Shown here: positions 1 through 19,790 of the stretch, one piece after another
Layout: each line of letters begins with the position of its first letter
Numbering within the stretch: position 1 is the stretch's first letter
Origin: a virus
Length of the DNA: 25,811 nucleotides
Direction: 5' to 3' (one strand)
IMG/VR virus record: IMGVR_UViG_3300018082_000386
Coordinates: 1 to 25,811 of that record
Position numbers and translations under genes: made by a program
The notes under the pieces: generated by a model
The model's input: only the letters and a program-made list of their open reading frames with translations
Database searches by the model: none
Told to the model about the DNA's origin: nothing

Positions 1-888
1 ATGGTTAAATTCGTTGTCGAAGTCGGCAGCAACCACACTAAAGTGCGTTCCAGCAACCGCGATCTAGATCGCGCTCTCGCATTCATCGACACGGCGGCGC
101 GCATCGGGTGCGATTCGGTCAAGTTTCAACTGTTCCGAGTCGATAAACTCTTCGCGCCCGAGGCCCTGCGCGCCAATCCCGAACTTCTCAAGCGCCGCGA
201 ATGGGAATTGCCTATCTATTGGCTACCGCTGTTGGCCGAGCGATGCACGGAACGCGGTATCGAGTTTGCCTGCACGCCGCTGTATCTCGAAGCCGTGGAG
301 GAGCTGCGGCCTTATGTGGCGTTCTACAAGATAGCGTCATACTCTCTGCTGCACGACGACCTGCTGCGTGCGGTAGCGGCGACGGGCAAGCCGGTAGTGC
401 TGAGTACGGGGGTGGCACATTGGGATGAAGTCGAGAGGGCTGTCAATGTATTAGTTAATGGCAATTCACGACACATTACGCTTTTGCATTGTGTGTCCAG
501 GTATCCTGCGTCTCTCACCGATTGCAACTTAGACGCGATCCGGACTTTTTCAGACCGTCTTGGGTTCTGTTGGGTTGGCTGGTCTGACCACAGTGTTAAT
601 CGGGGCGTTATCTATTCTGCCGTATTCCGATACAATGCCTCCACGATTGAATTTCACCTCGACCTCGATGGCATGGGCGCGGAATTCGACGCCGGCCATT
701 GTTGGCTACCAAGCGAAATAGAGGCCGTGATCCGCGCCGTGCGAGACGGTGAGCAGGCTGCCGGCGACGGCGTGAAGCGCCCAACGGCGGCAGAGATGGC
801 CGAGCGCGACTGGCGCTCAGACCCGGCAGACGGATTGAGGCCGATGCGGGCGATGCGCGAGAGACTATTGACACCAGTGGCACAATAG
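1..888 (+). CDS. NeuB-like N-acetylneuraminate/nonulosonate synthase, catalytic domain only
   Basis: Resembles the TIM-barrel domain of sialic/nonulosonic acid synthases, which condense phosphoenolpyruvate with an N-acetylated hexose. Visible family motifs are EVGSNH (residues 7-12), VKFQ (40-43), KIAS (110-113), VVLSTG, LLHCVSRYP, GWSDHS (about 193-198) and IEFHLD, which keeps a His. At 295 aa it lacks the C-terminal antifreeze-like (SAF) domain of full bacterial NeuB proteins of about 350 aa. The usual KxxSxE motif reads KIASYS, so the Glu is missing and activity or substrate may differ. Residues 12-18 (HTKVRSS) are encoded by a dispersed repeat and look like an in-frame insertion. The ATG is the first base of the window, so an upstream start cannot be excluded. 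The gene sits just before the terminase as a cargo gene. Family assignment is good; substrate is unknown. Confidence 0.82.
   Translation: MVKFVVEVGSNHTKVRSSNRDLDRALAFIDTAARIGCDSVKFQLFRVDKLFAPEALRANPELLKRREWELPIYWLPLLAERCTERGIEFACTPLYLEAVEELRPYVAFYKIASYSLLHDDLLRAVAATGKPVVLSTGVAHWDEVERAVNVLVNGNSRHITLLHCVSRYPASLTDCNLDAIRTFSDRLGFCWVGWSDHSVNRGVIYSAVFRYNASTIEFHLDLDGMGAEFDAGHCWLPSEIEAVIRAVRDGEQAAGDGVKRPTAAEMAERDWRSDPADGLRPMRAMRERLLTPVAQ
34..51 (+). repeat. 18-nt dispersed repeat, copy 1 (in NeuB-like gene)
   Basis: Variant of AACACTAAAGTGCGTTCC with 17 of 18 bases matching. It lies between two direct copies of AGCAACC (28-34 and 52-58), as expected for an insertion with a 7-bp target duplication. 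The net gain would be 24 nt, or eight codons, which keeps the reading frame. Confidence 0.75.
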
Positions 889-897
889 TGCTACCAT
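868..897 (+). promoter_or_regulatory. Cassette A sigma70-type promoter
   Basis: TTGACA (868-873), 18-bp spacer, TACCAT (892-897). It overlaps the 3' end of the NeuB-like gene. The -35 hexamer and 18-bp spacing match cassette B and nearly match cassette C, which supports function although this -10 is weak. Confidence 0.65.
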
Positions 898-910
898 TGG
901 CGTGACTCAG

Positions 911-950
911 CCGCGCATCGGCGCAGGAATCCTGGCGGTATGCTGGCCGC
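911..950 (+). promoter_or_regulatory. Cassette A conserved leader core
   Basis: This leader segment starts 13 nt after the -10 hexamer and runs into the terminator stem. It matches 5162-5201 at 27 of 40 positions without gaps, including shared CCGC, GGCG, CCT, GCGGTA and CTGGCCGC blocks. It has no convincing ORF. It may be a recognition element for an antitermination or attenuation factor, or the body of a small RNA of roughly 75 nt. Confidence 0.55.
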
Positions 951-975
951 TCCCAAAAAGGGGAGCGGCCTTTTT
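945..975 (+). terminator. Intrinsic terminator, cassette A
   Basis: Perfect 10-bp stem GGCCGCTCCC (945-954) / GGGAGCGGCC (961-970), 6-nt loop, then TTTTT (971-975). It lies about 48 nt after the promoter and just before the terminase start, so read-through or antitermination would be needed for terminase expression from this promoter. Confidence 0.85.
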
Positions 976-982
976 GTGTCTC

Positions 983-2566
983 ATGCTCTCACCACAAGTC
1001 ACTAACCAACTCATGCTCGAGCGCGTGCGGCGCGCGGCAGAGAGGTCGCGCTCTATTTCCTTCGCGCCTGTTTGGAAACCACAGCCAGGGCCGCAAACGC
1101 ACGCCTACAACAGTGATGCTGACGTCATTGGGTACGGCGGCGCGGCGGGCGGCGGGAAAAGCGACCTGCTGATGGGGTTCGCTGGCACAAAGCATCGGCG
1201 CTCAATTATCTTTCGTCGTGTGTTTCCTTCCCTGCGTGGTCTCATTGAACGTTCCCGTGAGATTTTCAATCCAGCCGGAGACACACGCGCCAGAGACAGT
1301 TACAATGAGCAGTTGCACGTCTGGCGGCTACACCATGAAGTTGAGCGAATGCTTGAATTCGGCGCAGTTCAATACGAGCAGGACAAGAAAAAGCACCAGG
1401 GCCAGCCGCGCGATCTCGTGGGGTTCGATGAGGTGACAGAGATTCCCGAAAGCGTCGTGCACTTCCTGATGGCGTGGAATCGCACGACGACGCTGGGCCA
1501 GAAGTGCCGTGTCGTGATGACGTTCAACCCGCCGATGGATGAAACGGGCGAGTGGGTGATTCGCTTCTTTGCGCCGTGGCTAGACGACAGCTACCCGAAT
1601 CCCGCTCAGGACGGCGAGCTTCGTTGGTATGCCATGCTGGACGGCGAAGAAGTTGAGATGGAATCCGGCGAGCCTTTTGAACGGAACACCGAAATCATTA
1701 TCCCAAAGTCTCGCACATTCTTTCACGCCAGCCTGAAAGACAACCCAATACTCGAGGCCACAGGCTATGGAGCGACAATCGATGCACTGCCTGAGCCGTT
1801 ACGCTCGCTTCTAAAAGGCTCATTCGATGCAGCAAAAATCGAAAACCCATTCCAGACCATCCCACTCAACTGGATAAAGCTTGCCGTTGGCCGCTGGCGG
1901 GAAACGCCCCCCACCGCCGCCAAGCAGACTGCGCTCGGCGTTGACGTGGCACGCGGCGGGCGCGACCAGACGGTGATTGCCGAGCGGTTCGGCTATTGGG
2001 TGGCGCCGCTACACAAGCACCCGGGCCACAGCACGCCAGACGGCAACGCGGTCGCCGGCCTCGTTCTTTCGGCTATGAGAGGCGAGCCGGTCGTCAATAT
2101 GGACGTGATCGGCGTTGGCTCTAGTCCGACCGACCTGCTTAAAGACAGTGTGCGTGTGCGACCTATCAATTTCGGTGAGGGTACACATGCGACAGACAGG
2201 ACGGGCCGGCTAAAGTTCGCTAACGTGCGCGCGGCCGCGTACTGGCGGATGCGCGAGTTGATTGACCCCGACAACGGGTATGGCGTTTGCTTGCCAGATG
2301 ACCGTGAATTGATTGCGGATTTGGCCGCGCCGAAATGGGAACTGCGCGGTGGCAGAATCTACATTGAAAGCAAAGAGGACATCCGGGAGCGACTTGGCCG
2401 TTCAACGGATTGCGGTGATGCTGTGGTGCTGGCATTTTATGGCAGTGACCCGCTTCCTGCGGGCATTATGGAGCAGGTTGCCGAGCCGGCCCCGTCGCGC
2501 TTCGTGAAGAATGCGCCGAGCGGCGGGCGGTGGGGGCGCAATGAGAAGCGAGGATGGAGACGATGA
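983..2566 (+). CDS. terL: Phage terminase large subunit (TerL)
   Basis: ATP-driven DNA packaging motor and headful/cos nuclease, 527 aa from the ATG at 983. The Walker A motif GGAAGGGKSD is at about residues 52-61, the Walker B-like VGFDE at about 146-150, and the coupling-type motif MTFNPP follows. The C-terminal RNase H-like nuclease shows GVDVARGG (Asp at about 321), a central VNMDVIG strand and a late acidic STDCGD (Asp at about 479). A GTG at 902 would give 27 extra residues, but these would be encoded by the terminator hairpin, so 983 is preferred. No Shine-Dalgarno sequence is visible; the start follows the terminator U-tract by 7 nt. No small terminase is recognised in the window. The 3' end lies close to the next gene through a short repeat. 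Confidence 0.93.
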   Translation: MLSPQVTNQLMLERVRRAAERSRSISFAPVWKPQPGPQTHAYNSDADVIGYGGAAGGGKSDLLMGFAGTKHRRSIIFRRVFPSLRGLIERSREIFNPAGDTRARDSYNEQLHVWRLHHEVERMLEFGAVQYEQDKKKHQGQPRDLVGFDEVTEIPESVVHFLMAWNRTTTLGQKCRVVMTFNPPMDETGEWVIRFFAPWLDDSYPNPAQDGELRWYAMLDGEEVEMESGEPFERNTEIIIPKSRTFFHASLKDNPILEATGYGATIDALPEPLRSLLKGSFDAAKIENPFQTIPLNWIKLAVGRWRETPPTAAKQTALGVDVARGGRDQTVIAERFGYWVAPLHKHPGHSTPDGNAVAGLVLSAMRGEPVVNMDVIGVGSSPTDLLKDSVRVRPINFGEGTHATDRTGRLKFANVRAAAYWRMRELIDPDNGYGVCLPDDRELIADLAAPKWELRGGRIYIESKEDIRERLGRSTDCGDAVVLAFYGSDPLPAGIMEQVAEPAPSRFVKNAPSGGRWGRNEKRGWRR

Positions 2567-2572
2567 GTACAG

Positions 2573-2605
2573 AACAGCAGATCGGGAGAATTTACGGATT
2601 CGGAT
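2573..2605 (+). repeat. AACAGCGGATTnGGAGAA-family element, copy 1
   Basis: A diverged copy of the element seen between many genes here. It lies between the terminase stop and the preferred GTG start of the portal gene at 2622, which is one reason for rejecting the more upstream portal starts. Confidence 0.65.
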
Positions 2606-2621
2606 TACATGGAGTAAAAAG

Positions 2622-5132
2622 GTGAATAAAACAGATACGCGCCAGCGCGACGAAGAGATCCGCAAGAGCAAGGAGCCTGCGCCGGTGTTGGCCGAACGGT
2701 TTGGCTTGAGCAAATCGCATGTGTACCGCGTTCGCAGGAATGTCCATAACGCTGAGCGCTTCGCGGACAAAGGCAATGGTCGCTCGATGGTGGGCGGCGG
2801 GATATACAGCGAGATAGGGCTGACTGGCCTACGCCGATTTGGGGGCAATATTGACGAGGAGTACGACCGCGTTTGGAAACCGCTGTCGAAGAAGGTCGCA
2901 CTCATCAAAGAGATGGCTGACGATCCGATTATTGCCGCGGTACTCCAGGCCGTGCGCATGACACTCAAGCGTGTCAAATGGTACGTTGAGCCTGGGGGAG
3001 ATAGCCAGGCGGATGGGCCGGCGGCAGAATTCCTTGAATCGTGCATGAACGATATGAGCCAGTCGTGGACGGACACCATTGACAACGCCATAAACATGAT
3101 TCGTGACGGCTTCTCGTTGTGCGAGATTGTGTACAAGAAGCGCGCTGGACTACGGAAAGACGGCATCAGCAAGTACGATGACGGTCGCATTGCCTGGCGT
3201 AAGTGGTTGTTCATCGGCCCAGACTCGCTGGCGCCCGGTGAGCCGTGGATGTTCGACGAGCACGGCGGGATCCAGGGCATCAAACAGCAGCCGCCGCCCG
3301 ACTACCAGTTGCGCGAGATTCCGATTGATAAGATGATCCTGTTCAGGACAACCTCGTACAAGAACAACCCGGAAGGCTATCCTCTGCCGCGAGCCATGTA
3401 TCCGGCGTGGTACATGAAAAAGAACTTGGAAGAGATTGAGGCGATAAGCGCGGAGCGCATCGGGGCCGGCTTCCCGGTGATTTACATGGGCAGCGATGTG
3501 GGCAAGAACCTGGACGACCCTAACTCAGACGCGGCGCATTTGCAGGATGCCGGCCGCAACATCCGCGTCGATGAGCAAATGAGCCTGCTGGTGCCCTACG
3601 CCAAGATGGGCGCGGGAGCGCGCGAGGGCGAAGGCGTGCTATTCGAGTTCGTCTCGCCGCCCGGAACGAAGGCTATCAATTTCCACGAGACGATTACGCG
3701 CTACGAGCAGCGCATGACGATGGTCGGCCTGGCGCAGTTCATTCACCTAGGAATGAACCAGGTCGGGGCCCGGGCGCTGGGTGAATCGTCGCAGGATTTC
3801 TTCACGACCGGTTTGGCCGGCTGGGCGGACGCAATTGAGGACACGATTCGCCGCTTCGGCACGGAGCGGCTGTTCAGGCTGAATCACTTCCCCGGCATCA
3901 CAGACATCCCGCGTATCACGCACGAGGCGATTGGCAAGTACACGCTTGCCGAACTCGCGGATTACATCAGCAAACTGGCCGGGCCGGGGCTGATTGTGCC
4001 GGACACGGCACTGGAACAGTTCCTGCGCCAGTTCGCGGAGTTGCCAGAGAAGCCGATTGAGGTACAGGCACCGGAAGGTAAGCAACCTACTGATGGTGAA
4101 ATTAAACTTCCAGATGTATCACCGCAATTGACTTTGAACGGCGCTCAGGTTAGGGCGGCACTGGATGTAGTCAGGCAGGTATCCGCTGGTGAAATCTCAC
4201 AAGAGGCAGGTATCAATGCTCTGCAAATCCTATTCAACCTGACTGAAGACCAGGCTAGTCGTCTAATGGGGAGTGGCGCTGCGTTGAAGAAGGCAGCTCG
4301 AGCAACCGGGGTATCTGCCACATCTGATAATAAAAAAGGGGCAGTGGCTCTGACGGGTGACAAAGAGGCAGCAGAGAAGGCGGCGGAACGCTTCGCAGAC
4401 CTGCGCGGCGTGGGGAAGGCTGGCCGGCGCCCAAAAGCGATTGAGGCTGTCAACGCCTATCAGAAGGCGCTGGAATCCGAGTACGCGGACTGGGCAGAAG
4501 ACCTCGCCTCGCAACTGGCAGATGCCGACGAAGGCGACCGAGAGGCACTCCTTGCGGCGGCGCTGGCCGCATTGCTGCTGCAACTGCGGGCCGAGGGGCG
4601 CAAACGCATCACGGACGCGATGATGCTGGCGCTAGACGGTGAGCCGCCGACGCCAGAGATGCTACAGGCACTCACAGATACCATTGCGGAGAATGACCGC
4701 TACCTGGAATCGAGCCTGATTCCGGCGATTCGACGCAAGATGGAGGATGCGCTTACCGACGAGGACATTCTCACGGCGATTGAGACGGGCGCCGGGGATG
4801 ATGCGCTGCTCGGCTGGCTAGGGACAATGACGGCGCGGACGGCTCTGTATGCCGGGGCGTGGTGGAAACTGTTTAACCATATCGTCGGACGCAAGGCGAG
4901 CGAGAACAACCGAGAGGTTATTTGGTACCTTGACCCCAGCGCGAAACATTGCCACGACTGCCCGAGCTGGGGTTCGCCAGAAGGCACACACTATGAATCC
5001 TATGAGAAGATGCTGGAGATTACGGGCGGTATGGCTCCAGCAGATGGGGTCGAGTGCGGAGGGTACTGTCGCTGTGGATTGGGTGAGGGTGATTTCGTGA
5101 ATGTCTCTGGCATCCCCTTGACAGAAACCTAG
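2622..5132 (+). CDS. Portal protein fused to MuF/gp7-like minor head protein, with N-terminal HTH
   Basis: The dodecameric portal at the DNA entry vertex, here about 836 aa. The start chosen is the GTG at 2622, preceded by GGAG at 7-nt spacing; an ATG at 2541 is also in frame but would translate a dispersed repeat. Residues about 10-39 look like a helix-turn-helix (LAERFGLSKSHVYRVRR). Residues about 60-500 are DUF935-type portal, ending in the characteristic LNGAQVRAALDVV segment. Residues about 620-836 resemble the phage Mu gpF/SPP1 gp7 head-morphogenesis domain, with YLDPSAKHCHDC and CGGYCRC cysteine motifs near the C-terminus. In many phages portal and MuF are separate genes, so this is a fusion. 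The HTH is atypical and might represent a small-terminase-like DNA-binding module; that is inference. Confidence 0.88.
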   Translation: MNKTDTRQRDEEIRKSKEPAPVLAERFGLSKSHVYRVRRNVHNAERFADKGNGRSMVGGGIYSEIGLTGLRRFGGNIDEEYDRVWKPLSKKVALIKEMADDPIIAAVLQAVRMTLKRVKWYVEPGGDSQADGPAAEFLESCMNDMSQSWTDTIDNAINMIRDGFSLCEIVYKKRAGLRKDGISKYDDGRIAWRKWLFIGPDSLAPGEPWMFDEHGGIQGIKQQPPPDYQLREIPIDKMILFRTTSYKNNPEGYPLPRAMYPAWYMKKNLEEIEAISAERIGAGFPVIYMGSDVGKNLDDPNSDAAHLQDAGRNIRVDEQMSLLVPYAKMGAGAREGEGVLFEFVSPPGTKAINFHETITRYEQRMTMVGLAQFIHLGMNQVGARALGESSQDFFTTGLAGWADAIEDTIRRFGTERLFRLNHFPGITDIPRITHEAIGKYTLAELADYISKLAGPGLIVPDTALEQFLRQFAELPEKPIEVQAPEGKQPTDGEIKLPDVSPQLTLNGAQVRAALDVVRQVSAGEISQEAGINALQILFNLTEDQASRLMGSGAALKKAARATGVSATSDNKKGAVALTGDKEAAEKAAERFADLRGVGKAGRRPKAIEAVNAYQKALESEYADWAEDLASQLADADEGDREALLAAALAALLLQLRAEGRKRITDAMMLALDGEPPTPEMLQALTDTIAENDRYLESSLIPAIRRKMEDALTDEDILTAIETGAGDDALLGWLGTMTARTALYAGAWWKLFNHIVGRKASENNREVIWYLDPSAKHCHDCPSWGSPEGTHYESYEKMLEITGGMAPADGVECGGYCRCGLGEGDFVNVSGIPLTET

Positions 5133-5147
5133 AACCTGTTCTATAAT
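5118..5147 (+). promoter_or_regulatory. Cassette B sigma70 consensus promoter
   Basis: TTGACA (5118-5123), 18-bp spacer, TATAAT (5142-5147): both hexamers match the consensus exactly. It overlaps the last codons of the portal-MuF gene and would drive the zinc-ribbon, protease and capsid block if transcription passes two downstream terminators. Confidence 0.85.
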
Positions 5148-5161
5148 ACGCACACATCAGG

Positions 5162-5201
5162 CCGCACACTGGCGGCAAGTACCTTGCGGTACACTGGCCG
5201 C
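5162..5201 (+). promoter_or_regulatory. Cassette B conserved leader core
   Basis: Aligns without gaps to 911-950 (27 of 40 identical) at nearly the same distance from its -10 box. Shared blocks are CCGC, GGCG, GCGGTA and CTGGCCGC, and similarity resumes after the first terminator (TTTTTGyGTCTC in both). No ORF is supported in the 171 nt between the portal stop and the next gene. Confidence 0.55.
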
Positions 5202-5231
5202 GCCCGACATTCCGGGTAGTGCGGCTTTTTT
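5197..5231 (+). terminator. Intrinsic terminator 1, cassette B
   Basis: Imperfect hairpin: GCCGC (5197-5201) pairs with GCGGC (5221-5225), with an inner CCCG/CGGG stem, followed by six T residues. It is the positional equivalent of the cassette A terminator. Confidence 0.7.
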
Positions 5232-5265: not shown

Positions 5266-5299
5266 AACGGCGCTGGCCTTCGGGTCAGCGCCGTTTTTT
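5266..5299 (+). terminator. Intrinsic terminator 2, cassette B (TTCG tetraloop)
   Basis: A 13-bp stem 5266-5278 / 5283-5295 with one G-T pair and a stable TTCG loop, running into a T-tract. It ends only a few nt before the ATG at 5304. A small TCTCGC/GCGAGA hairpin (5235-5251) separates it from terminator 1. Confidence 0.85.
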
Positions 5300-5303
5300 A
5301 TTT

Positions 5304-5585
5304 ATGCGATACGACACTCGCTGCGCCAGACATGGCCTTGTTGAGATTGAAAAGCGAATGAGTGACCCGTTACCCCCCTGCCCTGCTTGCGGGGGTGAGT
5401 TGCAGCGAGTGTACTCAGTGACGCCGGTCTTATTCAACGCTGCTGGCTTCACCGCAGCGGATGTGTCGCATTTTGAAAAGCAGGTCGGCCCAGAGCGGTA
5501 CGCCCGCTTCGTCCAGCAGCGCGATGACGCAGAGCGGCGGGCGAAGGCGGGACAGTTGACGGAATACGAACGGAGTTTAGATTGA
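5304..5585 (+). CDS. FmdB-like zinc-ribbon protein
   Basis: A 93-aa protein of the FmdB-type zinc-ribbon family, often seen among phage structural genes, function unknown. The N-terminus YDTRCARHG supplies the first cysteine (Cys at about 7, with His in place of the second usual Cys) and CPACGG at about 26-31 the second knuckle. The C-terminal half is charged and helical. The ATG has no Shine-Dalgarno sequence and lies directly after a terminator U-tract, but the family N-terminus fits this start. It overlaps the next gene by 4 nt (TTGA), suggesting translational coupling. Confidence 0.7.
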   Translation: MRYDTRCARHGLVEIEKRMSDPLPPCPACGGELQRVYSVTPVLFNAAGFTAADVSHFEKQVGPERYARFVQQRDDAERRAKAGQLTEYERSLD

Positions 5586-7246
5586 ACGGGCAGCGATACG
5601 CTTTTGAGCCTTTCGCCTCACTGGACGGCGTATTGCGCGGTGAGCCAATCCGTATCATGCCGCTGGGCCAATTCTATCGCGGTGATCGGAAACTGGAGAT
5701 CACCGAAGAGCGCTTGAAGGCAATCGCAGCGAATCTCGCAGCCGGCCTGCCCCGTTTCCGTGTGCCGATTAACGAGAATCATTCAGGCGTCGGCAAGGTC
5801 GGCACAGTTCATGCAGTCGAGTTCAAGGCGGATGGCGCGGACGGGCCGGGGCTGTACGCGACGGATTACGAACTGACGGACGACGGCAGGAAGTTAGTCA
5901 AGGCGAAGCGGTTCGACGCAACGAGTCCAGAAATCATCTGGTCGCTGAATGAGGACGCGAAATACCAGGATCCACAGACCGGTGAGTATCATGACAATGT
6001 TCTTGTCGGACTCGCTCTAACCGAAAAACCCTTCTTTGGACATGACAATGTCGCGCTGTTCAGCGCTGACAGGAAAATGGGTGAGCAGTTTGTAGATAAC
6101 AGCGACGCGCACCTGTCTGCCATGCGCAAGGCGATGAAGAAGGCGCGTGACTTGGCCTATCAGTTCATGGCCGCTATCGATGGATGGGGTGAGGAATTGC
6201 CCGAGCATAAGCGTCCACAGACGGAGAAGGCTATGGACAAACAACGGCCAGATGAGTTTTATGGCGATTACCCATCCATGCCACATGGCTACCCCGCCCA
6301 TCGTTTGCTGGATGCGATTGAGATTATCAGCGATATGGGCAAGGAGATGGAGGGCGTCGCCGGCGTTGGTGACGCGCTAGAGAGTGCCAAGAACGAACTC
6401 AAGCAAGTCATCTCGAAACTTGTCGCTATGTATTCGGGCGATGATGTAATTGCCGAACGGTTCCGAGAGTTTGATGCTGAGAAACGGCGCGAACTGGCCG
6501 CGAAGGGACAGGCGCTGCTGGATGGCTCGTTCCCGATTGTGACCGCAGGTGACTTGCGGAATGCGGTCCAGGCGTGGGGGCGTGCCAGCAATCAGGCACT
6601 CGCCAAGAAACACATCATCAAACGGGCTAAGGCGCTGGGTGCGACCGATTTACTGCCCGATGATTGGAAAGAATCCATGAGTGAGGAAAAGGAGACAGAG
6701 GATATGGGTGACAAAACCACTCCAACGCCTCAGCCCGAGGCCGTTAAGTCTGAAGACCTGACAGCGCTCAAGGCTAAGGCCGAGCAGTTTGAGGCTCAGT
6801 TGAAAGCCCAAACTGAGCAGTTCGAGGCAAAACTGAAAGCGGCCGATGAGAAGGCCGATAAGTTCGCCACGGAACTGACGCATGAAAAGCGTGCGCGCCG
6901 GCTGGAGCAGATGAAAGACCGCGCCGAACAGTTCGTCGCGCTTCCAGCGAAGGCCGATGAACTGGCGCAGAAGTTGCTCGAACTGGAAGAGGCGAACGCC
7001 GACCTGTTCACGTATTTCATTGGGCGGCTGGAGGCGGCAGACAAGGCGCTGGTCGAGTCCGACCTGTTCAGCCAGAAGGCGAGCGCACGCGCGGATACGC
7101 CGGCGGCCTCGTTCGAGGCGCTGGTCGAGCAGATTCACCGCGAGAAATTCAATAGCGAGCCGGGCAAGTACGCCGATGCGTTCATGGTGGCAGGCGAGCA
7201 GCGGCCTGACCTGGCGCAAGCCTACAAGCAAGGCGCGCGGAGGTAA
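5582..7246 (+). CDS. Capsid maturation protease with DUF6582-like middle and scaffold tail
   Basis: Prohead protease of the Mu gpI type, 554 aa. The TTG start overlaps the previous stop and has GGAG 5 nt upstream. Residues about 1-165 form the protease-like region, with PINENHSGVGKVG (candidate catalytic His) and ATSPEI. A middle segment resembles DUF6582: KRRELAAKGQALLDGSFPI, then DLRNAVQAWGRA and HIIKRAKALGATDLLP, at about residues 300-360. The C-terminal third is a long coiled coil rich in Glu, Lys, Ala and Gln, with repeated EQFEA(Q/K)LKA units, and is the likely scaffold that organises capsid assembly. It sits directly before decoration and capsid genes, as expected. The protease assignment is by motif and position. 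Confidence 0.8.
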   Translation: MNGQRYAFEPFASLDGVLRGEPIRIMPLGQFYRGDRKLEITEERLKAIAANLAAGLPRFRVPINENHSGVGKVGTVHAVEFKADGADGPGLYATDYELTDDGRKLVKAKRFDATSPEIIWSLNEDAKYQDPQTGEYHDNVLVGLALTEKPFFGHDNVALFSADRKMGEQFVDNSDAHLSAMRKAMKKARDLAYQFMAAIDGWGEELPEHKRPQTEKAMDKQRPDEFYGDYPSMPHGYPAHRLLDAIEIISDMGKEMEGVAGVGDALESAKNELKQVISKLVAMYSGDDVIAERFREFDAEKRRELAAKGQALLDGSFPIVTAGDLRNAVQAWGRASNQALAKKHIIKRAKALGATDLLPDDWKESMSEEKETEDMGDKTTPTPQPEAVKSEDLTALKAKAEQFEAQLKAQTEQFEAKLKAADEKADKFATELTHEKRARRLEQMKDRAEQFVALPAKADELAQKLLELEEANADLFTYFIGRLEAADKALVESDLFSQKASARADTPAASFEALVEQIHREKFNSEPGKYADAFMVAGEQRPDLAQAYKQGARR

Positions 7247-7685: not shown

Positions 7686-8612
7686 ATGAGTAAACCGACC
7701 TATCAGCAAGTCCACACCGACGTTCCGCTGACCAACATCAGCGTCGCCTATGTCCCCGCCAGTTTCATCGCGCCGCAGGTGTTCCCGCTCGTTCCGGTAC
7801 AGAAGATTTCGGACAAGTTCTACGTTTACACCAAGGCCGACTGGCTACGGCGTGAGGCTCAGCCACGCGCGGCTGGCACACGCGCGGCGCGCGGCGACTA
7901 CGGCCTGACGACCGATACTTACACCTGCGTCGAGATTGCCATCGGCAAGGGTGTGCCGGATGAGATCGTGCGCAATGCGGACAACCCGTTGCGACCGCTT
8001 GAGGATGGCACAAAGTGGGTCACATCGCAGCTCCTGCTGGAGATGGAGAACGAAGTCGCGACGACTGTCAACACTGCCGGTGCATGGTCGGGCAGCGCAA
8101 CACCGGGCGTGCTGTGGAGCAACGACACCAGCACGCCGCTGGACGACGTGGAGACGGCAGTCAACAGCGTGGTATCCACCATCGGTGTCCTGCCGAATAC
8201 GGGCGTTCTGGGGCGCGGCCTGTGGCGTTTCCTCAAGAACCACCCCGAAATCCTGGACCGCATCAAGGGCTCGGCTGGGCCGAACAGCCCGGCAGTCGTG
8301 ACGCTGAACGCAGTCGCGGCGCTGATGGAGCTGGATCGGCTGGTCGTTGGGTCGGCCATCAGCGACACGGCGGCGGAAGGCGCGGCCTCCTCGCTCTCAT
8401 ACATCTGGGGCAATCACCTGCTGGTGGCCTACGTCACACGCGGGCCATCGCTGATGGAGCCGAGCGCGGGCTACGTGTTCACCTACGAGAATCGGCGGAT
8501 CGAGCGCTTCCGGGAAGACCAGGAGCATCAAGATGTACTGACTGGCTATCAGTCCTGGGACACGAAGATTGTCGCGTCGGACGCTGGCTACAGAATCATT
8601 AGCGCGGCCTAG
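7686..8612 (+). CDS. Major capsid protein (HK97-fold type)
   Basis: A 308-aa protein beginning with the typical N-terminal pattern of Mu/E-like coat proteins (NISVAY, FIAPQVFPLVPV, then YTKADWLR). A central helix region and a C-terminal TYENRRIERFREDQEHQDV and YRIISAA fit this coat family. The very strong Shine-Dalgarno AGGAGGTGA fits high expression. It is the only gene of suitable size between protease and connector, and is flanked by decoration proteins. Confidence 0.87.
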   Translation: MSKPTYQQVHTDVPLTNISVAYVPASFIAPQVFPLVPVQKISDKFYVYTKADWLRREAQPRAAGTRAARGDYGLTTDTYTCVEIAIGKGVPDEIVRNADNPLRPLEDGTKWVTSQLLLEMENEVATTVNTAGAWSGSATPGVLWSNDTSTPLDDVETAVNSVVSTIGVLPNTGVLGRGLWRFLKNHPEILDRIKGSAGPNSPAVVTLNAVAALMELDRLVVGSAISDTAAEGAASSLSYIWGNHLLVAYVTRGPSLMEPSAGYVFTYENRRIERFREDQEHQDVLTGYQSWDTKIVASDAGYRIISAA

Positions 8613-8623: not shown

Positions 8624-9073
8624 ATGCCTGACGTTTTTTACGGTAGTGCCTGTGCCCTCGCCGGATTCGCCATTGACGACCTGTTCACGGCGGCAATAAG
8701 TCTGAGCGGGAGCCAGTTCAGGTTCGTGTCGGCTGGATCGGTAGCGGGCGAGGTGACTGGCGCGACGGGCGCCTCTAACCCAACGCCCCTCGGCGTTCTT
8801 CAGAATGCGCCGAATGCGGCGGGCATCGCTCGCGTGCGTATTTTTGGCCGAACGCAGCTGAGCGGCTCGCCCAACGCCTGCAACCTGGGCTATGGCCGGT
8901 TCATTTCGTCCGGATCTCTGGGATCGGCCCTGGCCTCGATAGACAACGCCTGCGTCGTGCTGGGCCGCTGGATTTCCTCTTCACTGGTGTCCACGGGCGG
9001 GTCGGTGCTTGGCGAGGCCTACGTGAACTGTGTTGGTTTTGGCGCATCGAGCGTGGGCGCGGCTGCCTCTTAA
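8624..9073 (+). CDS. Capsid decoration protein, DUF2190-like (copy 2)
   Basis: A 149-aa paralogue of the protein at 7250: GASNPTPLGVLQNAP, ARVRIFGRTQ and VVLGRWIS align with its counterparts, but the rest is more Gly/Ser-rich and more hydrophobic. Strong Shine-Dalgarno AGAGGAGG, 12 nt after the capsid gene. Probably a second capsid-surface protein that arose by duplication; whether both occupy the same sites cannot be told. Confidence 0.65.
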   Translation: MPDVFYGSACALAGFAIDDLFTAAISLSGSQFRFVSAGSVAGEVTGATGASNPTPLGVLQNAPNAAGIARVRIFGRTQLSGSPNACNLGYGRFISSGSLGSALASIDNACVVLGRWISSSLVSTGGSVLGEAYVNCVGFGASSVGAAAS

Positions 9074-9638: not shown

Positions 9639-9644
9639 ACAGCA

Positions 9645-9708
9645 GGGCGAACACGTAGGCTCAGGGCGAGCACGTAGGCTCAGGGCGAGCACATAGGCTC
9701 GCCCCAAC
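9645..9708 (+). repeat. GGGC-hairpin repeat array 1
   Basis: Three units: GGGCGAAC, GGGCGAGC and GGGCGAGC, each followed by ACGTAG or ACATAG. The last is closed by GCTCGCCC (stem 9683-9690 / 9697-9704) and CAAC. It fills most of the gap before the gene at 9732. Confidence 0.75.
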
Positions 9709-9731
9709 ACGGAAAAAGGCATAGGACACGG

Positions 9732-10118
9732 ATGGCCGTTTACCTCGGCGCGCTCGAAATGTATCGCGGCGAAAAAAAGACGTGGCAGTTCACCGTCACG
9801 GGCTCGAGCGGCTCGCCGCAAAGTCTGACCTCCGCCAGCATCCTATTCACGGTGGCATCGGCGATACCAGCCGGCAGCGTGGGGAACGATTCGGCGGCGA
9901 CCTTCACACGCACGAACGGCAGTGGCGTCACTATCACAGATGCATCGGCCGGAGTGTTTGAGTTGACGGTCAACAAGACCAACACCTGCGCGCTGGATGT
10001 GGGATCGGTGAAAGATTTTTTCTACGGCCTGGAACTGCTCACTTCTGGGGAGACGGAGCCGCGTGTGATTGCGACGGGCCTTTTCCGTATCCTGCCGGAT
10101 ATCGTCCGGGGCGCCTAG
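9732..10118 (+). CDS. Ig-like/BppU-N-like phage structural protein
   Basis: A 128-aa beta-rich protein. The N-terminus (MYRGEKKTWQFTV, then LTSASILFTV) resembles the N-terminal domain of baseplate upper protein BppU-type proteins, and the C-terminus (EPRVIATGLFRILPDIV) fits their closing strand. This suggests a small virion accessory or adaptor. Here it lies in the head-fibre region rather than with baseplate genes. The ATG follows the repeat tail acacgg; the nearest AGG is close but the ribosome site is weak. Confidence 0.5.
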   Translation: MAVYLGALEMYRGEKKTWQFTVTGSSGSPQSLTSASILFTVASAIPAGSVGNDSAATFTRTNGSGVTITDASAGVFELTVNKTNTCALDVGSVKDFFYGLELLTSGETEPRVIATGLFRILPDIVRGA

Positions 10119-10177
10119 GGCGAACAGGGCAGACACACAGGTCTGCCCCAACGAGTTCGCCCCAACGGGTTCGCCCT
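10118..10177 (+). repeat. GGGC-hairpin repeat array 2 (nested)
   Basis: Outer GGGCGAAC (10118-10125) can pair with either of two GTTCGCCC copies (10155-10162, 10169-10176). The inner hairpin GGGCAGAC-ACACAG-GTCTGCCC spans 10127-10148. CCAAC follows the first two closing arms, CTAAC the last. The first base overlaps the stop codon of the preceding gene. Confidence 0.78.
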
Positions 10178-10196
10178 AACACGGAGAGTTTGATGG

Positions 10197-10691: not shown

Positions 10692-10695
10692 CAGG

Positions 10696-10754
10696 CAAGT
10701 AGACAGGTAGACAGGTAGACAGGTAAACAGGTAAACAGGTAGACAGGTAATCAG
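10696..10754 (+). repeat. gtagacag/gtaaacag octamer tract 1
   Basis: About seven tandem octamers alternating GTAGACAG and GTAAACAG, between the SwmB-like gene and the fibre gene. Equivalent tracts occur at 21043 and 25430. Confidence 0.9.
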
Positions 10755-10829
10755 AGGTGCGAAATCGCAAACTATAAGGTCAAAGACGCGGATGCTGCCA
10801 GTCAACTGATACGCGCCAGCGGATCGGGT

Positions 10830-14186: not shown

Positions 14187-14188
14187 TG

Positions 14189-14746: not shown

Positions 14747-14749
14747 GAT

Positions 14750-14943: not shown

Positions 14944-14951
14944 TAAAATAT

Positions 14952-15632
14952 TTAGCCGATATATTTCTTGACTTTTCTGAGTTGATGATAGAGTTCGTCG
15001 AGTTGGCTTCTTTCAGAAGCCAGCAATGGGAATCCCTTTCTGTATTCTGAATATCTCTTGTTCATGATTTCTACAGCGATGGCGAATATCTCAAAGTCCT
15101 TTTGTTTCTTGGACATTAAGGGATACCTTCTGAATGTTGCGACCACTTTGTGGTATAGAGTAGGTATATCAGATATATCTACGCCAACATATGGTTTTGA
15201 GATATATCCCTGACGATTGGAGTTCCTATAGTGTTTGTGAGCTATCTTGTTGTCGATATTCCATAGATGACACAAATATTTAATAGCATCTTCATCATCT
15301 GCTCGGAGATTAACTAAATAATGGCATCGGTAATACAGAGGGCCTTTCTTGTTTTTGATTGCGCCCATGTGAAAGCAGGCTTCTCCAGAACTAAAGCCGG
15401 CAATCCAGCCGCCTTGTTCTGGAGTGAGTATATCAACAGACCATTCAATCGAATCGCGTTCAAAGCCAGCCAAATGCAAGGCACGTTCCCAGCCGACAAA
15501 TCTTTTTGTAATCGTACACCAACTGAATCGACCGTGTTCTCTGTAGTCTCGATTTGTGGGCGGTCTATCGACTATTTCGGCAACATGCTTGAGGTCTTGA
15601 AGTAGCTCTTCGCTGGGAAATGTACGCGGCAT
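14952..15632 (-). CDS. LAGLIDADG homing endonuclease
   Basis: The only minus-strand gene, about 226 aa from the ATG at 15632. The frame is open to 15788, but that extension would translate the promoter and leader hairpin. An N-terminal region (about residues 15-55: PPTNRDYREHGRFS and VGWERALHLAGF) resembles the homing-endonuclease-associated repeat. It is followed by the LAGLIDADG-type motif WIAGFSSGEACFHMG and its beta sheet. A single such motif suggests a homodimer. The gene is more AT-rich than its neighbours and has its own promoter, as expected for a free-standing mobile endonuclease that cuts alleles lacking the insertion. A second degenerate LAGLIDADG helix cannot be excluded. Confidence 0.85.
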   Translation of the reverse strand: MPRTFPSEELLQDLKHVAEIVDRPPTNRDYREHGRFSWCTITKRFVGWERALHLAGFERDSIEWSVDILTPEQGGWIAGFSSGEACFHMGAIKNKKGPLYYRCHYLVNLRADDEDAIKYLCHLWNIDNKIAHKHYRNSNRQGYISKPYVGVDISDIPTLYHKVVATFRRYPLMSKKQKDFEIFAIAVEIMNKRYSEYRKGFPLLASERSQLDELYHQLRKVKKYIG

Positions 15633-15650
15633 AGTTGCACCATAAAAGGT

Positions 15651-15706
15651 GCTCCCCCAGTGGCGTGCCGGTCTGTTGTCTAGGCAGACTGGGCCAAAGG
15701 GGGAGC
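15651..15706 (-). promoter_or_regulatory. Structured leader hairpin upstream of the homing endonuclease
   Basis: Read on the minus strand, an 8-bp GCTCCCCC/GGGGGAGC stem (15699-15706 / 15651-15658) encloses further GGC/GCC and CAGAC/GTCTG pairs. It is followed by ACCTTTTA just before the start codon. A 12-nt arm (15677-15688) is the exact inverse of 15743-15754 in the same leader, so two alternative folds are possible, as in attenuators. Confidence 0.65.
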
Positions 15707-15759
15707 ATGTAAGAGAAACAAAAAGACCCGCGTGCTTGCCAATCTGCCTAGACAGGAAC

Positions 15760-15788
15760 ATTATAAGCCTGCTTGCGCTTGGCGTCAA
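15760..15788 (-). promoter_or_regulatory. Homing endonuclease promoter
   Basis: On the minus strand: TTGACG (15783-15788), 17-bp spacer, TATAAT (15760-15765). It is about 130 nt upstream of the preferred endonuclease start at 15632. Confidence 0.8.
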
Positions 15789-15823
15789 TAGGTGAGCGGG
15801 TGATACAAAAGGGGTGATGCTCT

Positions 15824-17101
15824 ATGACAGTTCCAAAGAACGGTATGCACTACATTTTTCTATATGCCGACAGCCCCAGCGAATGGAATTGCAGCGAATG
15901 GCGCGCGTTAAGTCCCAGCAATTCAATCAACGCTGAGCACGCGGCCGGCCGCACGCCGCACACAGCGCAACTGTTTCACCTACCCAGCGCGCTCAATTGG
16001 TCACATCCCGAGGTGCAGAAGAAAGTCGGTCTCGGCGACGTGCTGATTTTTCAGCGCAACTGCATCGCTCCCGAAGTTTGGAATGCGATGGATTACTGGC
16101 GCGCGCTAGGCAAATTGGTCGTTGTGGATCTCGACGACGGCTACCCACTGCTGCCGCCGTCCAACCCGGCCTTCACGTACTGGATCCGCAACATCAATGA
16201 CATGAATCCTGATCCGGTCACGGCGCTCGAAGAGGGTTTACGGCACGCCGACGCGCTGATTTCACCGGGCAAGGTTATTTTGCAAGACTGGGCGCATGTC
16301 GTGCGCGGCTACTGGATTCCCAACTGGACGCGGCGGGCGTGGTATACCGGGCTCCAGCAGAAACCGATGGGCGCGCCCGATGTGATATTCAGTTACGAGG
16401 CAAAGGAAGGCGTTCCCGAACTCGTGATGAAATTCCGCGAGAACTCTGAGGATTGGCAAATCATCGGGTGGGGTGGCAGTATCAGCCATGTCGATTCGTG
16501 GATGTATAGCGGCATCGTCGAGGCGCTCGACCGGATATTCGAGAAGTGGCCGAATGCTCACCTCAAGTTCTGCGGAAGCGAGGCACGGCTCGATGCCATC
16601 CTCAAGCGGTGGGGGGAGCGCGTGATCCGGCAGGAGGGCGTCAAGCCGGAGCACTGGCCGATGGTATTGTCCACCTTCGACATTGGTGTCGCGCCGCTGG
16701 ACATGCGTCCGCTGGAGCCGTGGCGACCGGGGGCGCCGGTTGCGGCCTACGACGAGCGCCGGTCGTGGCTGAAGGGCATTGAGTATCTGTCCGCCGGCGT
16801 GCCGTGGGTGGGGAGCAAGTCGCTGACTTACAACGACCTGGCTCAGCATGGCACGCTGTGCGAGAATACGTCTGAGGGGTGGTTTCGAGCGCTCGACAAC
16901 AAACTACAGAGCCTGTCGGGCGAGAAGGGAATAGCCTGGAAGCGACGCACCTGGGCGCTGAAGAAAGTCACCTTCGAGGCGAATGTCGGCAACTATGCGG
17001 GCATCTTTGAGCGCATCATTGCCGAGAAGAGCGTTAGGAATGGGGCGCGGCTACCGGACATCATCTACATTCAGCAGCAGGTCGCGCCGGCAGGGACATA
17101 A
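15824..17101 (+). CDS. GT-B glycosyltransferase (GT4-like)
   Basis: A 425-aa protein with GT-B features of glycosyltransferase family 4. An N-terminal acceptor-side half has VVVDLDDGYPLLP. A C-terminal donor-binding half has IIGWGGSISHVDSW, HLKFCGS, then FDIGVAPLD and WLKGIEYLSAGVPWVGS, the last matching the nucleotide-sugar-binding E/D-rich loop region of this fold. It would transfer a sugar from an activated donor, acting in the host cytoplasm. The ATG is preceded by GGGGTGAT. It lies within the structural operon between connector and tail genes, so virion decoration or surface modification is plausible; neither donor nor acceptor can be read from the sequence. Confidence 0.8.
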   Translation: MTVPKNGMHYIFLYADSPSEWNCSEWRALSPSNSINAEHAAGRTPHTAQLFHLPSALNWSHPEVQKKVGLGDVLIFQRNCIAPEVWNAMDYWRALGKLVVVDLDDGYPLLPPSNPAFTYWIRNINDMNPDPVTALEEGLRHADALISPGKVILQDWAHVVRGYWIPNWTRRAWYTGLQQKPMGAPDVIFSYEAKEGVPELVMKFRENSEDWQIIGWGGSISHVDSWMYSGIVEALDRIFEKWPNAHLKFCGSEARLDAILKRWGERVIRQEGVKPEHWPMVLSTFDIGVAPLDMRPLEPWRPGAPVAAYDERRSWLKGIEYLSAGVPWVGSKSLTYNDLAQHGTLCENTSEGWFRALDNKLQSLSGEKGIAWKRRTWALKKVTFEANVGNYAGIFERIIAEKSVRNGARLPDIIYIQQQVAPAGT

Positions 17102-17127
17102 CAGCGGATTGGGAGAATCGGACGGAT
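17100..17127 (+). repeat. AACAGCGGATTnGGAGAA-family element, copy 3
   Basis: Starts at the end of the glycosyltransferase stop codon and is followed by AGAGGAAGG and the next ATG. Confidence 0.8.
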
Positions 17128-17139
17128 AAAAGAGGAAGG

Positions 17140-17349
17140 ATGCTGACACAACAACAACAACAGGCGCAGGAGACCAGTTATCGACTGGCGCATGAATGGT
17201 ATCAGGGTATCGACCTGGACTGCTCGGGAGTCCACCTCGGCCAGGCGATGACCTACGAGATCATGCGCATCGCGGGCGTGATTTTCAGACGACACATGGA
17301 GAGAGGTAAAGGCGATGGCCGAACCGAAGAAGCACGACACGGAACCTGA
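17140..17349 (+). CDS. Small hypothetical protein
   Basis: A 69-aa protein not recognised. Begins with a polyglutamine stretch (MLTQQQQQAQ), then a helical segment and HLGQAMTYEIMRIAGVIFRR. AGGAAGG directly precedes the ATG, and the 3' end overlaps the next gene by 35 nt. The tail beyond about residue 55 may be read-through into that overlap. It could be a small helical partner or a leader peptide for the downstream glycosyltransferase. Confidence 0.45.
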   Translation: MLTQQQQQAQETSYRLAHEWYQGIDLDCSGVHLGQAMTYEIMRIAGVIFRRHMERGKGDGRTEEARHGT

Positions 17350-18661
17350 CACGGAGACACGGAACAGCGGATTAGGAGAAATCACGGATTCGGACACCCC
17401 CGCCGAAAGCGGGCGAGGGCAGGCGGATGAACGGAAGTCATACAAGCCGGTCTTGCTGATTTCGGGCCATAATGTCACAGAAGCGCTGTGGAGACCGCTG
17501 TCCGAAAGGTATGACCTGTGCATGCTCTATGCGCAGGCCGCGCCGTATGCAGAATCGATTGGGGTCAAGTGCCTGGGCCTTAACAATTTCCTGACGCCCG
17601 ACGTGCAAGAGAAGGCGATGAACACCGCGGCTGAACTGACGGCAAACATCGTCAATGGGATGCCGGGAATCATGCAGCGGATGCGTGCGGCGGTTGGTGA
17701 GCCGATCATGCCGACGGAGTTGGAGAATGCGGAGGAGTGGTTCGCCGGATTATGCATGCATCATTTTCAGGCGTGGTCGATAGAAATCGCCATGCTGGAG
17801 CAGTTGGAGGCGCAAAGGCGCATTGCCGGCTGCGTGACGCACGAGGACGTGACGGGAGAGACGCGGGCTATGGTGGACTTCTGCCGAGCGAGAAGCATCC
17901 CGACCGTGCACGTGCCGCACGCGAATTGTCATCTGCTGGCCGATGCTGGCCCAGATATTCATCGTGAGTGGCGTTGCGATTTCATTGCGGTGGCAGGGAC
18001 AGCTATGCGCGACTGGTTCGTCGCCAACGGGTTCCCGGCCGCGAGGATTGAAATCACGGGAGTACCCTACTTCGACCGTTACTATGGCGAAATGCCGTTG
18101 AAAGAGGAGGCGAGGCACATTCTGGCGATACCGGACGGAAAGCGTGTGATTTGCTACTCTGGCACATGGACGCAGACGACGGGTCTGCGCGGGGAATGGG
18201 AGAAAGAAATAGACGGCAACCTGACCGCCGTTATCAACCTGGCGCGTGACTGGGATGCATTTCTCATCAAGACCATTCACCCACACGACGCAAGCCAGTC
18301 AGAGCAGTATTTCGCGCAGGCGATGCAACAGGCACAGGTGTATGGATTGGTTACGCGACATCACCAGACCTATGCGCTGCGCGCAGCCGATGTGCTGATT
18401 GCGCCGGCGTGCAGCAACATGTGCATCGACGCGGCGATCCTGGGAACACCAGCATGCTACCTGCAAACGGAAGGATTCGAGTACGCGCACGAATTTCCAT
18501 TCCGGGCGGGGCCGGAGGGCATTGCCGAAGCGGCTCGCCTAGCGCTGGAAAGTCGGGACGACCCACGCTGGGATGACTTCTGCAAGACGTACAACGCGGT
18601 ACATCCCGCAGGCGACGCGGCGGAGCGGGTCGCCTCGGTGGTGACACGGATATGCCCATAA
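17315..18661 (+). CDS. GT-B-fold glycosyltransferase-like protein (capsule/glycerophosphotransferase type)
   Basis: A 448-aa protein. After a hydrophilic N-terminus, YKPVLLISGHNVTEALWRPL begins a Rossmann-like half. IPTVHVPHANCH, CDFIAVAGTAMRDWF, IEITGVPYFDRYY and DVLIAPACSNMCIDAAILG match the two-domain fold of CDP-glycerol glycerophosphotransferase and surface-polysaccharide transferases. Residues about 16-40 are encoded by a dispersed repeat and look like captured intergenic sequence. The ATG has GAGAGG about 10 nt upstream. The gene overlaps the small ORF before it and the tail-completion gene after it, so it is embedded in the late operon. Sugar transfer is probable; the substrate is unknown. 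Confidence 0.68.
   Translation: MAEPKKHDTEPDTETRNSGLGEITDSDTPAESGRGQADERKSYKPVLLISGHNVTEALWRPLSERYDLCMLYAQAAPYAESIGVKCLGLNNFLTPDVQEKAMNTAAELTANIVNGMPGIMQRMRAAVGEPIMPTELENAEEWFAGLCMHHFQAWSIEIAMLEQLEAQRRIAGCVTHEDVTGETRAMVDFCRARSIPTVHVPHANCHLLADAGPDIHREWRCDFIAVAGTAMRDWFVANGFPAARIEITGVPYFDRYYGEMPLKEEARHILAIPDGKRVICYSGTWTQTTGLRGEWEKEIDGNLTAVINLARDWDAFLIKTIHPHDASQSEQYFAQAMQQAQVYGLVTRHHQTYALRAADVLIAPACSNMCIDAAILGTPACYLQTEGFEYAHEFPFRAGPEGIAEAARLALESRDDPRWDDFCKTYNAVHPAGDAAERVASVVTRICP
17363..17393 (+). repeat. AACAGCGGATTnGGAGAA-family element inside coding sequence
   Basis: A copy lying in frame within the N-terminal region of the glycosyltransferase-like gene, preceded by cacgga-rich sequence. Other copies lie between genes. 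Confidence 0.75.
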
Positions 18662-19152
18662 GCATCAACATCAAATCGGACGGCGTGCTGGAGCAGGTCG
18701 CCAAGAACATGGCGGCGGCCCCGCAATGGATGCCGAAGATTGCGAAACGGGAAATCAAGCGGCTTGGGCCGATTGGCATCCGAAGGATGCAGGGCATGGT
18801 CGGGCGCAACTATTACACTGGCACGCTGCTGAGGAGCGTGAAGGATGAGTACAAAGACGCGGGAATGACGGTCGAGATTGGCCCGACTGCCAAGCGTGGG
18901 CGATGGGATGCCGGCCTGATCCTGGAGTTCGGCACACGCCCGATTGCGCGCTGCCCGTATGCGCCCATCGCGCGCTGGGCGAGCGCGAAAGGCGCTCCGA
19001 TGCCCGGGGCGTGGCTGAAGATCCGGCGTGAGGGCGTGTCGCCGCATCCGTTCCTGGACGATACGCTGAATGCGGTAGAGCCAGATCTGGATAAGTCGAT
19101 TGACAAGATGCTGGGCGAGGCGATAGCTGCGGCGCTGCATGGGACGACTTAA
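18652..19152 (+). CDS. HK97 gp10-like tail completion protein
   Basis: A 166-aa protein with the layout of the HK97 gp10/minor tail family, which forms the head-proximal tail joint. It shows an N-terminal alpha-helical half (LEQVAKNMAAAPQWMPKIAK), then YYTGTLLRSVKDEY, VEIGPTAKRGRWDAGLILEFGT (the family's characteristic E-GT motif) and a C-terminal HPFLDDTLNA. It overlaps the preceding stop by 10 nt, so coupling is likely. Confidence 0.8.
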   Translation: MPISINIKSDGVLEQVAKNMAAAPQWMPKIAKREIKRLGPIGIRRMQGMVGRNYYTGTLLRSVKDEYKDAGMTVEIGPTAKRGRWDAGLILEFGTRPIARCPYAPIARWASAKGAPMPGAWLKIRREGVSPHPFLDDTLNAVEPDLDKSIDKMLGEAIAAALHGTT

Positions 19153-19178
19153 ACAGCGGATGGGGAGAATTTAACGGA
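19152..19178 (+). repeat. AACAGCGGATTnGGAGAA-family element, copy 5
   Basis: Spans exactly the gap between gp10-like stop and the next ATG. Its GGGGAGAA is the only candidate ribosome site for that gene. Confidence 0.82.
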
Positions 19179-19612
19179 TGGGGTTGCAGGATATTCGAGA
19201 CGGGTTGGCAAGAACATTGACGGCGTGCGGGCCGTATGTGGATGCGGAAATCTCGGCATGCGATTTCGGCATCCTGGAGTCGACGTCGGCCTGCGCGATT
19301 GTGTTCACGCCCGGTGCGGATACGGTATTCGAGGCAATGACGTTTGGCGCGGCGGGGGTGGATGCAAAGTCGTGGTCGATTGACGGCGCGGTGTACGTGA
19401 AAGACACGGGAGATCCGCTACTCTTTTTTGGCCGGGTGTGGCAGGCGCACGACGACTTCTTCAACACAGTGAAGAAGGACAGGTCTTTGAACAGCACGGC
19501 GAAATTCGGGCGCGTCGTGTCGATGTCGTACAATCCCGACGTGGGGCGCGAGGCGGGAGGGGCGTTTTGGGGGGAAATCAAGTTCCGGGTGGTGGCCGAG
19601 GAATATAGTTAG
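19178..19612 (+). CDS. Putative tail terminator/minor tail protein
   Basis: A 144-aa mixed alpha/beta protein. An N-terminal helix (LQDIRDGLARTLTACG) is followed by strands (CAIVFTPGADTVFEAMTF) and a C-terminal WGEIKFRVVAEEYS. Size, fold pattern and position between gp10-like and tail tube genes fit a tail terminator, but sequence similarity alone is not decisive. The repeat supplies its ribosome site. It is followed by the promoter of cassette C. Confidence 0.6.
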   Translation: MGLQDIRDGLARTLTACGPYVDAEISACDFGILESTSACAIVFTPGADTVFEAMTFGAAGVDAKSWSIDGAVYVKDTGDPLLFFGRVWQAHDDFFNTVKKDRSLNSTAKFGRVVSMSYNPDVGREAGGAFWGEIKFRVVAEEYS

Positions 19613-19615
19613 TCA

Positions 19616-19645
19616 TTGACGGCAGTCATTCGGATGTGGTAGGAT
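19616..19645 (+). promoter_or_regulatory. Cassette C promoter
   Basis: TTGACG (19616-19621), 18-bp spacer, TAGGAT (19640-19645). Same spacing as cassettes A and B, immediately after the preceding stop codon and ahead of the tail tube gene. Confidence 0.65.
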
Positions 19646-19662
19646 AGTCGCAGGCGGCCTGA

Positions 19663-19711
19663 GGGCAATCACGTAGGCAGCCTGAGGGCAATCACGTAGG
19701 ATTGCCCCAAC
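19663..19711 (+). repeat. GGGC-hairpin repeat array 3 within cassette C leader
   Basis: Two GGGCAATC-ACGTAG units; the second is closed by GATTGCCC (19700-19707) and CAAC. It looks inserted between the -10 box and the conserved leader core, lengthening this leader compared with A and B. Confidence 0.75.
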
Positions 19712-19717
19712 AGCACG

Positions 19718-19752
19718 CGCCCGCATTGGCGGGACAATCGAGCGGACACGCG
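19718..19752 (+). promoter_or_regulatory. Cassette C leader core
   Basis: CCGCA, TTGGCGG, GCGGACAC and the following CTG-CTC order resembles cassette B, with gaps. More diverged than the A/B pair. Placed directly before the terminator. Confidence 0.45.
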
Positions 19753-19790
19753 CTGCTCACCGGTGGAAATTCCGGTGAGCGGCGCTTTTT
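19750..19790 (+). terminator. Intrinsic terminator, cassette C
   Basis: A 14-bp stem 19750-19763 / 19772-19785 with one T-G pair and loop TGGAAATT, followed by TTTTTATTTT. Confidence 0.88.

Follow-up and report, generated by a model that had tools for sequence, protein, structure and literature searches.

Each of the packaging, capsid and tail gene blocks of an uncultivated tailed phage begins with a cassette made of a predicted sigma70-type promoter, a short leader and one or two intrinsic terminators, and in phages of the same capsid lineage this layout is found at three syntenic places, i.e. ahead of the terminase block, the Zn-ribbon/prohead-protease/capsid block and the major tail protein. 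From this arrangement we infer, with moderate confidence, a mechanism in which a phage factor loaded at the promoter would open several late operons together. The DNA analysed, a linear virus record of 25.8 kb referred to as the window, covers the late region of the phage.

Gene order and cassettes of the window

Cassette A occupies the gap between the NeuB-like and terminase genes, cassette B the junction between the portal and Zn-ribbon genes, while cassette C lies 5' of the major tail protein gene (Table 1). A preliminary description of this DNA had placed promoters with following intrinsic terminators near 868, 5118 and 19616, ahead of the packaging, capsid and tail blocks; all three are present at those positions, and gene identification bears out the blocks that they precede. 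It had also assigned a single terminator to each cassette, which is right for A and C, but B carries two in tandem. Promoters and terminators were predicted by E. coli rules, the sigma70 consensus and terminator strength being assumed to apply to the host.

Concerning the distance to the genes, the terminase ATG (983) follows the terminator of cassette A (ending at 975), the second T run of cassette B stops just short of the Zn-ribbon ATG (5304), and cassette C lies about 110 nt from the ATG of the major tail protein (19895). The first half of the C leader consists of a dispersed palindromic repeat (GGGCAATCACGTAGGATTGCCC) and the second half of a CCCGC-ATTG-GCGGG hairpin.

Table 1. Genes, cassette elements and other features of the window, in positions of the window.
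Feature	Position	Strand	Description
NeuB-like enzyme gene	1-888		sugar gene, NeuB family
Cassette A promoter	868..897	+	TTGACA-18-TACCAT; TG before -10; within last NeuB codons
Cassette A leader	904..944	+	predicted start 904; 41 nt
Cassette A terminator	945..975	+	10-bp stem, T5; d'Aubenton score +46
Terminase large subunit gene	983-2566		ATG 983
Portal gene	2511-5132		
Cassette B promoter	5118..5147	+	TTGACA-18-TATAAT, perfect; overlaps portal gene end
Cassette B leader	5154..5195	+	predicted start 5154; ~42 nt to first terminator; homologous to A
Cassette B terminator 1	5196..5231	+	GGCCGCGCCCG...CGGGTAGTGCGGC + T6
Cassette B terminator 2	5266..5301	+	13-bp stem
Zn-ribbon protein gene	5304-5585		first gene 3' of cassette B
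554-residue protein gene	from 5582		protease/scaffold position
Decoration-like protein gene			listed between 554-residue protein (5582) and major capsid protein (7686)
Major capsid protein gene	7686-8612		
Glycosyltransferase-like genes			listed between major capsid and major tail protein genes
Dispersed palindromic repeat	9640-9715, 10110-10180, 19665-19712, 19805-19880		intergenic; GGGCAATCACGTAGGATTGCCCCAAC and GGGCGAGCACGTAGGCTCGCCCCAAC variants; half of cassette C leader formed by two copies
Short tandem runs	10692-10760, 21040-21090, 25425-25465		AGGTAGACAGGTAAACAGGT; gaps between structural genes
Homing-endonuclease-like gene	14952-15788	-	HNH_repeat + LAGLIDADG_1
Promoter-like site	15788-15760	-	near-consensus; at homing-endonuclease-like gene
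Sugar biosynthesis/transfer genes	15824-17101, 17315-18661		with 1-888: NeuB family, glycosyl or glycerophospho-transferase
Cassette C promoter	19616..19645	+	TTGACG-18-TAGGAT; extended -10 TGTGG
Cassette C leader	19652..19749	+	predicted start 19652; 98 nt
Cassette C terminator	19750..19794	+	14-bp stem, T5AT4
Major tail protein gene	from 19895		ATG 19895
Tape measure gene	21095		

Some further features of the window should be mentioned. The Zn-ribbon start codon stands a few nucleotides past the T run, with no space for a Shine-Dalgarno sequence. Genes for sugar biosynthesis or transfer lie in the late region, as they do in the relatives G001, G025 and G031, several of them being common to the window and the relatives, and their products possibly modify the virion or the host surface. 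The homing-endonuclease-like gene stands amid structural genes on the opposite strand. The window has no tRNA genes and no match to Rfam families. Among bacterial genomes, terminase relatives are spread across scattered phyla, and a search of such genomes found no capsid relatives.

Relationship among the cassettes

Compared over the full length of leader and terminator, A and B agree at 60 of 83 columns (score 44), a score reached by none of 2000 shuffles and neared by no other site of the window. Against A and B, cassette C gives its best matches with pieces of the terminator, which are equalled by 27 and 87 of 2000 shuffles, respectively. The leader core that had been reported as shared by all three therefore stands as homology between A and B, but C matches them in layout only. 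This core is common to A, B and, partly, close relatives only. As a widespread element it was rejected: a DNA-pattern search of viral_contigs gave 58 matches, none of them in a promoter-terminator context.

Occurrence in related phages

Capsid-protein searches of IMG/VR led to about 90 loci, and some 1.2 Mb of relatives were scanned with a fixed rule, written after the window was seen, that requires a stem with 8 or more pairs, 6 or more of them G-C, a T-rich tail and a promoter score of at least 10 within 155 nt. As the preliminary description had anticipated, related phages have further copies that precede late genes, with the lambda/P22 pR'-tR' geometry. In relatives with 34-75% capsid identity, promoter-leader-terminator units lie 1.3-2.8 kb 5' of the capsid gene, most of them found by the scan (L068, L075, L078, L082, L083, L087, L088, L089, L094, L163, L164, L169-L172, L174, L175, L178, L180, L197) and others by reading (G002, L077). 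Units ahead of the tail protein, in the same position as cassette C, are present in G012, G013, G026, G031 and G032, and units ahead of the terminase or of an upstream late block in G001, G002, G028, G031, G032, G039 and G040. Five or six units were counted in G025, a record of 82 kb, where a start codon mostly follows the unit at a distance of no more than a few tens of bases. Every record with cassettes is of metagenomic origin, and most are fragments. The layout is absent in several relatives (G005, G014, G033, L090, L091, L095-L097) and around the capsid block of isolates with related, more distant capsids (KPP23, Salgado, RDJL1, Mulvp2); larger stretches of those isolates hold one qualifying terminator, in Mulvp2 only. 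A terminase relative (L006, 8803-9016) shows a strong promoter, then a tRNA-like gene without assignable anticodon (8844-8920) and then a terminator.

Among the sense-strand strong terminators of the relatives, a promoter stands upstream in 35 of 76 and downstream in 5 of 76 (p 1.4e-6), counts to which 25 records contribute and which are not all independent, since some records share homologous cassettes. An upstream promoter was found at none of the 40 antisense terminators, 48 terminators of unrelated viral loci and 39 of bacterial loci (Fisher p ~1e-9 to 2e-8 for the relatives against controls), and reversed-sequence controls agree with the enrichment. Hence, the cassette layout across relatives is far above chance, and the putative promoters and terminators, their order, their conservation at syntenic places and their absence in the controls can be read in the DNA itself. 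These counts also bear on the reading that the terminators merely insulate operons from upstream transcription, with promoters before them by chance. Inter-operon terminators are common and L068 does have a second terminator immediately 5' of its promoter; however, the excess of upstream promoters is the opposite of what ordinary units show (KPP23 terminators, 0/17 with a promoter upstream and 4/17 downstream), so that the enrichment counts already largely refute insulation, to which we give a minimal probability.

Known units served as a positive control: the scan detects pR'-tR' of P22 and HK97 (promoter score 9) and oop in lambda, HK97 and P22, together with a few other matches; oop RNA genes are established promoter-terminator units of the lambdoids.

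Promoters and terminators

The promoters of the cassettes show a TRTG extended -10 element, with T at the first position in 30 of 42, a purine at +1 in 36 of 42 and a pyrimidine at -1 in 33 of 42. As the TRTG and pyrimidine-purine features were not used, or only partly used, in the search, they support initiation about 7 nt past the -10 element as real. A -10-like sequence of the kind that acts as a sigma-dependent, promoter-proximal pause element occurs among the first transcribed nucleotides in 3 of 42, compared with 2 of 42 at the control offset.

The terminator stems of distant relatives are unlike in sequence. Compensatory changes had been anticipated among the copies, and what was found is that unrelated stems are re-formed at the same place, but no pairing beyond that. 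The d'Aubenton score is positive in 34 of 44 terminators, weak scores being those of L087, L082 and G026, and tandem terminators occur in cassette B of the window, L088, L180 and G025. These values are relevant to the proposal that the terminators are leaky, a constant low read-through from strong promoters fixing the ratios of late proteins with no factor involved. Such a scheme requires no hitherto undescribed protein and would suit the few weak scores, but most terminators score strongly and some are doubled, low read-through would be odd for capsid genes, which require high expression, and a conserved strong promoter in front of a strong stop would be hard to account for. We regard leaky termination as quite improbable.

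The most serious rival, which we nevertheless consider unlikely, is that hairpin and U tract form a 5'-UTR element that shields the 5' end from decay and offers a U-rich aid to the ribosome, termination being incidental or weak; the leader of T7 gene 10 is a precedent for such an element. It owes its weight to T runs that often touch the ribosome-binding site (they adjoin AGGAGG in G025, L084 and L078) and to HK97 (L256), in which terminator-like stem-loops with a T run stand directly 5' of the protease and major tail genes (3309-3335 and 6692-6719), positions that correspond to those of cassettes B and C, where, unlike the cassettes described here, no promoter reaches the scan threshold; P22 likewise has terminator-like stem-loops beside structural genes. 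The median distance from the end of the stem to the next open frame (at least 70 codons) is 18 nt, and the shortest leaders, of 2-12 nt, put the hairpin near the 5' end. On the other hand, tandem terminators and strong scores would be superfluous for such a role, cassette C is 110 nt away from its gene, and transcription from a strong promoter into such stems should mostly terminate.

Leaders

Leader length ranges from 2 to 117 nt (median 37), with 7 of 42 leaders in the range of 2-12 nt and 8 of 42 no longer than 18 nt, and leader sequence is kept among close relatives only. The leaders are mildly structured (mean z -0.87 against shuffles), and they show no excess of pairing with the 5' arm of the terminator (mean z +0.15 over 35 cassettes). 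A leader motif that appeared conserved by eye (CCCGC-loop-GCGGG hairpin plus GCGGTWAC) was not established: a covariance model trained on five B/C leaders recovered its training sequences only, and the held-out leaders of window C, G026 and G031 B were all missed.

A cis-acting leader RNA (put-like, riboswitch or attenuator) that chooses between terminator and antiterminator would agree with the slight excess of structure, with a B leader that can fold into a junction and with an upstream GGCGG segment that can pair with the terminator 5' arm in A, B and L068. The arm pairing is nevertheless not enriched over the cassettes, there is no Rfam match, and leaders of at most 18 nt compare with about 70 nt for put (PMC9378689), making such an RNA highly improbable. 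As a general device a put-type RNA is excluded by the median and minimum (2 nt) leader lengths and by the lack of sequence conservation.

Small-RNA genes, either lambda oop-like or resembling the 6S RNA of pR'-tR', might alternatively stand at late operons by chance. The recovery of oop by the same scan, the leader common to A and B and the promoter-tRNA-like-terminator unit of one terminase relative speak for them; the missing Rfam match, the lack of conserved leader sequence or structure among distant relatives, the failure of the covariance model on held-out cassettes and a position tied to the gene start speak against, and we hold this explanation to be very unlikely.

Proposed mechanism and search for the factor

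In the promoter-loaded mechanism that we favour, each late operon (packaging; Zn-ribbon/protease/capsid; tail) would begin at a strong sigma70-type promoter, from which the transcript would reach one or two intrinsic terminators 2-117 nt on, immediately 5' of the first gene. Host RNA polymerase in its unmodified form would mostly halt there and free a short leader RNA. A phage factor that we infer to be made later would then bind at or near the promoters and load, there and not via RNA, onto the departing polymerase, so that the terminator is passed and a single factor opens all late operons together. Late genes would probably be made only when the virus factor lets host polymerase past the stops, at several operons at once. 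Leader and stem sequences change from one relative to another, but the order promoter-terminator-gene persists, which indicates selection on the stop as such and no general need for a particular leader RNA. In leaders of 2-12 nt there is no space for such an RNA, and this fits a promoter-loaded factor.

Concerning the identity of this factor, the Q families PF06530 and PF03589 (Q21- and lambda-Q-type) gave nothing above cut-off in 20 records, mostly fragments; in the search for Q82 (PF06323) the control was silent. The NusG domain PF02357 is absent from 20 mostly partial records, with a positive control. No shared motif was seen between -35 and -10 that could serve as a binding element common to the target promoters. 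Within genomes the -35/-10 spacers resemble each other at p 0.012, uncorrected for the seven stretches tested, which is only suggestive as a hint of a binding site. Genes confined to cassette-bearing records are mostly structural, plus the Zn-ribbon gene (8 cassette-bearing records, 0/7 others); since no counterpart of the Zn-ribbon protein was matched in several relatives that do carry cassettes, it ranks as a weak antiterminator candidate at most.

More tentatively, and with some doubt on our side, the promoter-loaded antiterminators might form a new family of their own, without relationship to the known Q, AlpA and GafZ proteins, that controls three to six gated late operons throughout a large uncultivated phage group of this capsid lineage. 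The promoter-loaded mechanism predicts short leader RNAs, regulated read-through and a single loading factor, and the lineage is a possible source of new antiterminators. In metagenomic phages the cassette can also serve as a simple signature by which late operons are found.

Comparison with known systems

The likeness to lambda pR'-tR' or HK022 put noted in the preliminary description is retained for the pR'-tR' geometry but not for a put-like RNA. As in the cassettes, lambdoid pR'-tR' with Q (lambda, P22 gene 23, phages 21 and 82) joins a strong sigma70-type promoter and an intrinsic terminator to late genes; in P22, pR' starts at 37887 and tR' lies at 37917, which puts the terminator at +31. 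To our knowledge, Q-type antitermination is known chiefly from the single late promoters of lambdoids. Whereas lambdoids have one late operon, here there are three to six gated operons, in a different lineage, with no Q homologue found, no sigma-pause element and a terminator usually right at the first gene. What is new is the number of gated operons, three to six in each genome of a lineage that has no recognisable Q; the Q-like logic appears to recur at each late operon of the lineage, the leaders and terminators being exchangeable. The open-licence literature searched holds no description of multi-operon phage cassettes of this type, which is weak evidence of novelty.

HK022 put is an RNA of about 70 nt with two stem-loops that needs no protein (PMC9378689); the leaders described here likewise lie directly past the promoter with terminators downstream, but most are shorter, and they are variable and unrelated. 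The Caulobacter gene transfer agent has, in GafZ, a promoter-loaded antiterminator of a capsid and tail gene cluster, the same logic as proposed here, with the difference that GafZ has a single target promoter and a terminator after the first gene (PMC11150451). By analogy, the closest worked example for the proposed mechanism is AlpA of Pseudomonas aeruginosa, which has two target operons with terminators at +26 and +54, before the first gene, and a binding element between -35 and -10 (PMC7969949); read directly, the three spacers of the window lack its ABE motif GGGACG-N5-GGTA. The likeness consists in one factor acting on more than one operon, with terminators, sometimes two, 5' of the first gene, while the targets of AlpA differ in being chromosomal cell-death and other bacterial genes (PMC7969949, PMC9371919). 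On balance, the cassettes probably work like pR'-tR' or AlpA targets, and we assign them to neither.
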